Shown in pieces: positions 27,808-28,936 of a DNA stretch of 64,000 bases. The translations under genes were made by a program, and so were the position numbers. Below the pieces are notes generated by a model. It was not told the origin of the DNA and ran no database searches. It saw nothing but the letters and a program-made list of their open reading frames with translations. Source of the DNA: an uncultured Alistipes sp. (GTDB taxonomy: Bacteria > Bacteroidota > Bacteroidia > Bacteroidales > Rikenellaceae); the NCBI GenBank assembly GCA_900542505.1, contig UQNV01000002.1, positions 43,989 to 107,988 on the forward strand, written 5' to 3'. Numbering within the stretch: the first letter of the stretch is position 1; the number at the start of each line of letters is the position of its first letter.

Positions 27808-27837
27808 AACCGGGCACGTGCATGCACGCGCCCGGTT
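27808..27837 (-). terminator. Terminator candidate of the small lipoprotein gene
   Basis: AACCGGGCACGTGCA pairs with TGCACGCGCCCGGTT. The one imperfect pair is G-U on the minus strand but A-C on the plus strand, suggesting minus-strand function. It shares the core CGGGCACGTGC with the amidase terminator. Tail TTCGATTTGG is weakly U-rich. Confidence 0.6.
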
Positions 27838-27912: not shown

Positions 27913-28404
27913 TTAGTCTCTTACCAAGGGGATATCCTGTCTTACGGAAGGCTCATCCGCCTGATAAAGCCGATTGACCTTTGCGCCGTAACCTTTAATC
28001 GTGACGGTATAACGGGTCCATAACCCGAACAGGACCTTTTTGCGCTTGGTCTCGTATTGCGGATTAATAATCATATCATAATCCGTTCCTTCCAACGCTT
28101 TTGCCATGGCCATCGAACGAATGCGTTTGCCTCGAAGGCCAAAAATAGACTTGCTGTTGTTGGTAGTCAGGACCTCGGCATATTTACGACCACCGCTTAC
28201 CTTTATGCCGAACAGATATCCGACACGGACCGTACCCTCCACCTTTTCAGAGGTATTGAAATCCAAATCAGCGCGAATTTCATTGGGGTGCACTTCCGTA
28301 TAGGCAAAGGGTGCAGAAGCACACGTTCTGCCCAATGTCGAACAACTTGAGAATGCAAACATGGAAATAATTGCAATGATACCAGCGAATACAATACGTT
28401 TCAT
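27913..28404 (-). CDS. Small lipoprotein of unknown function
   Basis: Lipoprotein of 163 residues with signal MKRIVFAGIIAIISMFAFSSC and lipobox FSSC. The mature part is mainly beta and basic (TVRVGYLFGIKVSGGRKYAEVL; NPQYETKRKKVLFGLWTRYTVTIKGYGAKVN), with two similar hydrophobic-aromatic segments around VGYLFGIKV and VLFGLWTRYTVTIKGYG. I do not recognise a characterised family. The start at 28404 gives the signal peptide; an upstream in-frame extension would read through the hairpin element and is rejected. Base composition is lower in GC than the flanks. Confidence 0.7.
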   Translation of the reverse strand: MKRIVFAGIIAIISMFAFSSCSTLGRTCASAPFAYTEVHPNEIRADLDFNTSEKVEGTVRVGYLFGIKVSGGRKYAEVLTTNNSKSIFGLRGKRIRSMAMAKALEGTDYDMIINPQYETKRKKVLFGLWTRYTVTIKGYGAKVNRLYQADEPSVRQDIPLVRD

Positions 28405-28500
28405 ACGTTGTTTCTTAAAAGTTTTTTCATTTATTTTTCCGGTCCGTTGCAGTTTTCGGGGAGTGCGGGACTCGGACAAATAAAAAACGCGGACCTTTAA

Positions 28501-28637
28501 CTTCATTTGTTTCTGAGGTATCGCCAAACACCTTACTCCCAAACAAGTAAAAGCCCACGTTGGAATACAACGTGAGCATCAACTTTTACTCTTGGGAGTT
28601 TCTTTAAATTGGCGATTTTCAGAAACAAGAATAGAAG
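28501..28637. repeat. Long bulged inverted repeat (structured RNA or MITE/REP-like element)
   Basis: Six pairs of perfectly complementary blocks are nested around a five-base loop (28563-28567): CTTC 28501-28504/28634-28637; TTGTTTCTGA 28507-28516/28619-28628; TCGCCAA 28521-28527/28609-28615; ACTCCCAA 28535-28542/28592-28599; GTAAAAG 28547-28553/28583-28589; CACGTTG 28556-28562/28568-28574. Internal loops of 2-9 bases separate the blocks. An outer pairing TAAAAA 28481-28486 with TTTTTA 28645-28650 may extend it. It lies 97 bp before the lipoprotein start, so would sit in that gene's leader on the minus strand. Identity is unknown to me. Confidence 0.8.
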
Positions 28638-28936
28638 CTAACGCTTTTTATGTCAATATGTCCCTAATTTACCAGGTCATTTATTCATAGGCTGTCATAT
28701 TTAAATCATCGCTACAAAAATAATGAATTATTCAATGCTTCCAACATCCTCGGGAGATTTTTGTAAAATCGAACGTCAAGCGACACACCGCATCCGAGTC
28801 TGATTCAAACCGGAATACGACCCTTCGACAATATCCTGCGCGAAAGCCGAAACAGAGCCATCGGGCCACACCCATGTCCGGGAGAAGCAAAGCTCCTTTT
28901 TCCTGCCGAAAAATCGGCGATGACACGAAAATGTCG

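Follow-up and report, generated by a model that had tools for sequence, protein, structure and literature searches.

What is the long, AT-rich hairpin that lies upstream of a small lipoprotein gene in an uncultured Alistipes sp., and what might it do there? The element, first seen at positions 28501-28637, is part of a window of 64,000 nucleotides (assembly GCA_900542505.1, contig UQNV01000002.1, positions 43,989 to 107,988 of the forward strand), and an initial sequence-only reading had offered several identities for it: a structured leader of the lipoprotein gene or a small RNA belonging to it, a sequence like a miniature inverted-repeat transposable element (MITE) or a repetitive extragenic palindrome (REP), or a recombination site. 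Comparison with related sequences shows that the element belongs to an RNA class that stands before genes of exported proteins and conserves helices that compete with one another. In its RNA sense, which is the minus strand, it is probably the 5′ leader of the lipoprotein mRNA, one copy of a bistable, attenuator-like cis-regulatory RNA class of the Bacteroidota. Pairings that exclude each other are conserved, which points to an on/off switch for the genes that the RNA leads; that it switches in the cell, that transcription terminates at its U-rich tract, in which direction it switches and whether its minimal open reading frame (ORF) plays any role, we infer.

The six nested complementary blocks that drew attention to the locus are present, both by a check of the sequence and in computed folds. 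The minus strand (28473-28660) folds with -70.8 kcal/mol (z -8.5) and the plus strand (28480-28660) with -60.3 kcal/mol (z -7.9), and for neither strand was any of 200 shuffles equally stable. The low GC content noticed at the outset is equally real: 28501-28637 stands at 0.387, the flanking genes at 0.64 and 0.63 and the window as a whole at 0.615. What is conserved is wider than these blocks, extending from ~28441 to 28722 and taking in segments outside them: the pairing segments a, b′ and c, the U-rich tract, the mini-ORF and a promoter-like box (Table 1). Chance or a plain hairpin is ruled out by the fold z-scores together with the covarying copies found elsewhere.

Where do such copies occur? 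A scan with the neighbouring carbon-nitrogen hydrolase returned 80 loci; the closest of these, L003, comes from Alistipes sp. Marseille-P5061 and keeps synteny on either side of the element. With the element itself as query, blastn found matches in 7 of the 11 genomes behind the hydrolase-scan loci and in 41 of 101 genomes of the genus to which the genome behind L003 belongs, most of the copies being ~70-80% identical to that of the window. An alignment of 37 copies, the window copy included (MAFFT), served as the basis of a covariance model whose own structure holds one stray pair besides the apical hairpin and the helices P2 and P3. Matches to this model were obtained in 132 of 150 genomes of the family, with at least 17 copies in one genome, in 92 of 247 genomes of the order and in 30 of 296 genomes of the phylum (E 1e-4), where the genome counts include the genome behind L003 itself and per-genome copy numbers are lower bounds. 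The model also matched in 20 of the 40 genomes behind named records, including Phocaeicola, Palleniella, Xylanibacter, Terrimonas and Ferruginibacter; among the named records without a match are Marinobacterium and a Spirochaetes bin. As a control we used the phylum of the Marinobacterium locus (L031), where none of 150 genomes gave a match, although this empty answer alone shows little. The sequence-only reading had asked for both searches and had let its observation depend on covarying copies in other genomes; both searches found copies across many genomes, these copies covary, and the observation was not refuted. Two matches from a viral collection (L001, L002), consisting of two exact 20-nt stretches without the rest of the element, were taken as chance.

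For the pairing counts we used 103 copies aligned by the model, drawn from 100 sources, other loci that repeat the same copies having been left out, and a distant set made up of the best 34 loci among the model's matches in the phylum and in the named-record genomes. The helices contained in the model are well kept in the 103 copies: P2 is 99.0% paired with both-side changes in all 6 counted pairs, P3 99.8% with both-side changes in 5 of 5, and the apical helix a′·b 98.3% with both-side changes in 5 of 9 pairs. The helices a·a′, b·b′ and P1 are absent from the model and are found in the same alignment: a·a′ is paired in 96.1% of cells (both-side changes in 4 of 6 pairs), b·b′ in 96.0% (4 of 8) and P1 in 91.0% (5 of 11). 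A shorter pairing, GGU/ACC, is formed in 95.8% of cells, with both-side changes in one of its three pairs; this variable pair reads UA in 84 copies, UG in 12 and CG in 3, and in the distant set UA in 27, CG in 5 and UG in 2. Compared with 500 shuffles, b·b′ lies above all of them in covariation score and in cells paired, and its number of both-side-change pairs is reached by 5; for a·a′, at most 5 of 500 shuffles reach any measure. Paired cells and covariation score of both helices also exceed every slid control.

Positions in three of the segments change together. One joint position of a′, b and b′ reads C-G-C in 36 copies, T-A-T in 29, T-G-C in 16 and A-T-T in 3, a three-way covariation, and a second reads G-C-G in 90 and A-T-A in 7. 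In all 102 countable copies, segment b fits both a′ and b′ with at most one miss each, and because b can form only one of the two helices at a time, these necessarily compete. In the window they are nearly isoenergetic (-12.2 kcal/mol for a′·b and -12.1 for b·b′), with -5.9 for a·a′, -9.5 for b′·c and -7.5 kcal/mol for P1. When all column pairs of the 37-copy alignment were scanned, P2, the long-range b·b′, the apical a′·b, P3 and P1 ranked first, and the six best stems in the 34 distant copies are P2, P3, b·b′, the apical hairpin, a·a′ and GGU/ACC, the last two jointly showing covariation above all 500 shuffles. RNAalifold under-predicted the rod on the 37 copies (22 pairs) because P4 and P5, which span 28535..28599 around the apical hairpin, are poorly aligned there; these two helices were therefore not counted on alignments.

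Table 1. Features of the window copy; P, helix; exact complementarity refers to the window.
Feature	Position	Strand	Details
Promoter-like box TATTTTTG (TAnnTTTG)	28715..28722	-	starts 34 nt ahead of the mini-ORF ATG
Mini-ORF ATG AAT AAA TGA	28677..28688	-	context GCCTATG
Core structured RNA	28473..28660	-	159 bits with the covariance model, the window copy itself being among its 37
Segment a (AGCGUU)	28640..28645	-	partner a′, or b′ and the U-rich tract as part of P1
Block CTTC/GAAG	28501-28504/28634-28637		exact complementarity
P2 5′ strand	28619..28625	-	partner 28510-28516; block TTTCTGA/TCAGAAA, exact complementarity
P3 5′ strand	28609..28616	-	partner 28520-28527; block ATCGCCAA/TTGGCGAT, exact complementarity
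P4	28592-28599/28535-28542	-	block ACTCCCAA/TTGGGAGT, exact complementarity
P5	28583-28589/28547-28553	-	block GTAAAAG/CTTTTAC, exact complementarity
Segment a′ (GAUGCU)	28575-28580	-	
Apical hairpin 5′ arm	28569-28577	-	
Segment b (AACGUGGGC)	28553..28561	-	apical hairpin 3′ arm; alternative partner of b′
Apical block	within 28553-28561/28569-28577		
GGU/ACC pairing	28530-28532/28517-28519	-	brackets the P3 3′ strand
Segment b′	28486..28495	-	28486-28493 pairs b; 28490-28495 pairs c
U-rich tract UUUUUUAU	28480..28487	-	at the end of b′; also P1 3′ strand
Segment c (CGGACC)	28441..28446	-	complement of the b′ 5′ part; past the U-rich tract, before the start codon
Led lipoprotein gene (predicted)	27913..28404	-	163 aa; lipobox SSCS; start codon 28402-28404

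How might such a competition control a gene? In the mechanism that we propose, transcription would start at the TAnnTTTG box, which we take to be the promoter type of the Bacteroidota; in many copies it would then pass through a mini-ORF, mostly two or three codons long. There would follow an RNA of ~185 nt in which P2-P5 form a rod: segment a would lie at the foot, a′ and b would occupy the tip, and the 3′ foot would carry b′ and the U-rich tract. In the first state, most likely the default fold, a′ would pair with b in the apical hairpin and the polymerase would read through; P1 may form at the foot. In the second state, a signal favouring a·a′ would free b for b′, and b·b′ with the U-rich tract, resembling an intrinsic terminator, would stop transcription ahead of the gene. 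In the full-length mRNA, b′ could also pair with c beyond the tract, possibly tuning translation.

The U-rich tract stands where an attenuator would need it, right after the fourth segment: 101 of the 103 copies have six or more T among the 9 nt that follow b′, as do 15 of 510 control windows. Could the switch nevertheless act on translation alone, with b′ choosing between b and c and so changing ribosome access, and with the tract present only as the 3′ strand of P1? Such a switch would be in keeping with the complementarity of b′ to c in the same copy, which averages 15.78 over 102 copies and lies above all 2000 permutations (mean 13.24, sd 0.24, maximum 14.09), and with the degree to which the A-tract and U-tract of P1 remain paired. 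Against it, the U-rich tract stays directly after b′ in all but two of the 103 copies and is visible in distant copies too, where P1 is not among the best stems; in some of these, moreover, the start codon is so far away that c could hardly shield it. We thus regard a purely translational switch as unlikely and continue to favour the attenuator-like leader.

A leader should have a gene to lead. An ORF of at least 45 aa lies on the 3′ side, on the same strand, in 98 of the 103 copies, at a median distance of 56 nt. By a home-made rule combining hydropathy and a lipobox, a signal peptide or lipobox is present in 81 of these 98 ORFs; on the mirrored side (5′ side, opposite strand) the figure is 6 of 61. 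The same rule applied to ORFs of at least 130 aa finds a signal in 55 of 66 led ORFs and in 36 of 166 other ORFs at the same loci, with comparison rates of 148 of 706 in loci L003-L082 and 9 of 39 in the window. The led proteins are otherwise diverse: of 137 copies, 116 are followed by an ORF that reaches 90 aa, and the proteins of these form 75 sequence clusters. Among ten searched against Pfam, one contains fn3, one is a TonB receptor with plug and CarbopepD_reg_2 domains, one resembles a DUF below the cut-off and seven have no match; the lipoprotein of the window reaches 23 bits with PF20205 (DUF6567), under the cut-off of 27.

This arrangement bears on two other explanations. A mobile or repeat element (MITE, REP or recombination site) that brings a promoter with it and integrates ahead of genes would be multicopy and could well be lower in GC than its flanks, as the element is. 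A MITE, REP or insertion-sequence end should have no fixed polarity relative to genes, whereas here exported-protein ORFs follow on one side only; in L003, the one close genome that we aligned, synteny extends over the conserved flanks and the element is in place, so that the site is not an empty one there. Most copies are ~70-80% alike and have compensatory changes in the helices, plasmids and phages contained no match to the element, start codons cluster at ~56 nt, and what is conserved are RNA helices, the promoter-like box and the mini-ORF. This part of the sequence-only reading is therefore hardly credible, and its proposal of a structured leader or small RNA is supported by the covarying copies and the exported-protein ORFs 3′ of them; compared with a simple terminator, a MITE or a recombination site, a leader RNA between the TAnnTTTG box and the lipoprotein gene fits best.

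The other explanation is a stand-alone family of small RNAs, encoded upstream of genes for exported proteins and acting in trans in the manner of 6S RNA or FopS, in which b·b′ and the U-rich tract would end the RNA. The promoter-like box of its own, the U-rich 3′ end and the many copies per genome would suit such a family, and some distant copies have the box abutting the core and no near start codon. We consider it quite unlikely for the class as a whole, given the clustering of start codons, the enrichment of signal peptides on the 3′ side only, and a segment b′ that covaries with c beyond the point at which a small RNA would have ended.

A mini-ORF opened by CC[TG]ATG is found upstream of the core in 60 of the 103 copies (the rule takes the last such motif, and mis-picks at least L144). 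Of the 58 distinct mini-ORFs, those related by descent not being independent, 54 reach an in-frame stop within 4 codons, while the other two frames give 17 and 16 in this test. The ATG is followed by one or two sense codons in 50 of them; these codons vary, and repeated regulatory codons as in an amino-acid leader peptide were not found among the 58. When any ATG is counted, 78 of 102 upstream regions contain one that meets a stop within three codons; after shuffling the number is 33.0 (sd 4.7). The TAnnTTTG box starts 28-42 nt ahead of the mini-ORF in 44 of 60 copies, compared with 1 of 60 at 70-84 nt. It is tempting to speculate that the leader is a Bacteroidota-wide switch for envelope load, in which the bistable RNA reads ribosome initiation or termination, rather than the identity of codons, at a minimal start-x-stop ORF and, by four-segment strand exchange, shifts unrelated exported-protein genes together; we put this forward tentatively, as an idea that is doubtful but may prove right.

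Several observations weigh against an attenuator-like leader. With regard to the led genes, 17 of the 98 downstream ORFs have no signal by our rule, 5 copies have no ORF, and in 17 of the 34 distant copies the next ORF is at least 130 nt away or none was found. With regard to the helices, P1 is kept less well than the others, the pair types of b·b′, one of five measures, are reached by 132 of 500 shuffles, and a·a′ ranks only ~22nd by covariation in the 37-copy scan, with 95% of cells paired; in the corresponding scan of the 103 copies, which needs unbroken columns, neither a·a′ nor P1 is in the top 25. In the distant set, b·b′ is 95.6% paired and shows a single both-side change, a number reached by 118 of 500 shuffles, so that this set confirms the pairing more than the covariation. 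Taken singly, no more than 17 of 102 copies rank their own downstream region at the 95th percentile of all or higher as a partner c for b′. The geometry is awkward as well: b·b′ encloses the whole rod, a large structured loop that is unusual for a terminator, and a·a′ would have to be forced against an apical hairpin that is local and forms first. A terminator scan limited to loops of 3-8 nt found no site at b′, and its sole match, with 0.6 expected by chance, was the apical hairpin followed by TTTTAC. Finally, the core contains in its 5′ part a sigma-70-type match (TTGACA, 17, TATTCT). If either this match or the apical terminator-like site were functional, our model would be wrong.

Individual loci show features of their own. 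In L186, leader and exported-protein gene occur twice in tandem (1240-1424 and 2363-2549), and six copies of the Alistipes group (L085, L088, L089, L093, L094, L095) have an extra GTGCCG...CGGCAC-type hairpin between mini-ORF and core. In six distant copies (L218, L220, L221, L222, L227, L230) no mini-ORF was recognised, a TAnnTTTG-like box lies directly against the core, and the next ORF is 200-300 nt downstream; all six ORFs belong to one protein cluster, that of L218 being a TonB-dependent receptor with a plug domain. Small HTH-like ORFs, mutually similar and not exported, lie just downstream of the RNA in L204 and L210, a zinc-ribbon-like ORF follows L217 and a restriction-like ORF L084, all named by eye. 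In the window, a near-perfect palindrome at 27808-27837, perhaps a bidirectional terminator, separates the convergent carbon-nitrogen hydrolase and lipoprotein genes.

Has this RNA been described before? The Rfam search proposed at the outset was run, and no Rfam 15 family matched over the element at its cut-off in the window or in 16 other loci. At the gathering threshold, only tRNA was found elsewhere in the window, and only tRNA in 8 of the other loci; with E up to 1, the remaining 8 loci gave one match overlapping the element, EGFOA-assoc-1 on the opposite strand of L188 (17.4 bits against a cut-off of 224.5), and 14 others elsewhere, all below cut-off. The models of Bacteroidales-1, Bacteroides-1, Flavo-1 and 6S-flavo, which according to Rfam and the available text of PMC2864571 are likewise structured Bacteroidetes RNAs, had no match in the window or the 16 loci. 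We did not find the element in the accessible text of the open-access literature, including PMC2864571, PMC8040213, PMC11109978, PMC7366714, PMC9723704, PMC11697453 and PMC8632094; the supplements were outside this search, and the element may therefore be among the 3161 candidates of PMC8040213 or the 64 structured 5′ regions of PMC9723704. The class is thus apparently undescribed.

Could the RNA instead be a riboswitch that binds a ligand, or else an element for self-cleavage or processing, with the pseudoknot formed by a·a′ and GGU/ACC as aptamer or catalytic core? Conserved stretches and pseudoknot-like pairings are what one would expect of either. Most metabolite riboswitches lead genes that share a pathway; the genes led here share export, not a pathway, and we think this explanation very unlikely. 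A riboswitch would be compatible with an attenuator-like leader if a ligand sets the switch.

If the leader is what we believe it to be, its meaning goes beyond a single lipoprotein gene. The Bacteroidota are major gut bacteria, and to our knowledge few cis-regulatory RNAs are known from them. One leader class before unrelated genes of exported proteins would amount to a post-initiation regulon of the cell envelope, found through RNA structure rather than through a shared pathway. Its covarying, exclusive helices lend themselves to tests by compensatory mutation, and the minimal ORF poses the question of what two or three codons can sense.

Finally, we would like to set the element beside known systems. 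In trp-type attenuators, regions 1:2, 2:3 and 3:4 pair alternatively and a short leader ORF lies upstream. Our element, in which a, a′, b, b′ and the U-rich tract follow each other and the pairings are a·a′, a′·b and b·b′, has the same logic: four segments, exclusive helices 1:2 and 3:4 against 2:3, as found in pair counts and covariation, a U-rich tract last and a short ORF upstream. It differs in that the ORF is mostly two or three codons long with varied codons, in that a long rod arises from pairing between the spacers 1-2 and 3-4, and in that it serves genes of 75 clusters instead of one biosynthetic operon. With FopS it shares being a multicopy Bacteroidales RNA family linked to outer-membrane proteins; FopS, whose structure is stated to be deposited in Rfam, is, as far as the available text of PMC11697453 describes it, a trans-acting RNA of ~65-70 nt with a single-stranded 5′ part and a terminator hairpin. 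The uORF motifs of ilvB and fthC are, in the accessible part of PMC11109978, each tied to one gene and one genus (Corynebacterium and Streptococcus, respectively), unlike the element, and for the fthC candidate the speed of initiation has been suggested as what is sensed (PMC11109978). Set against these systems, the RNA described here would be a new attenuator-like class, in which a long rod lies between the exclusive helices, a minimal ORF takes the place of a codon-rich leader peptide, and the targets are unrelated genes of mostly exported proteins.
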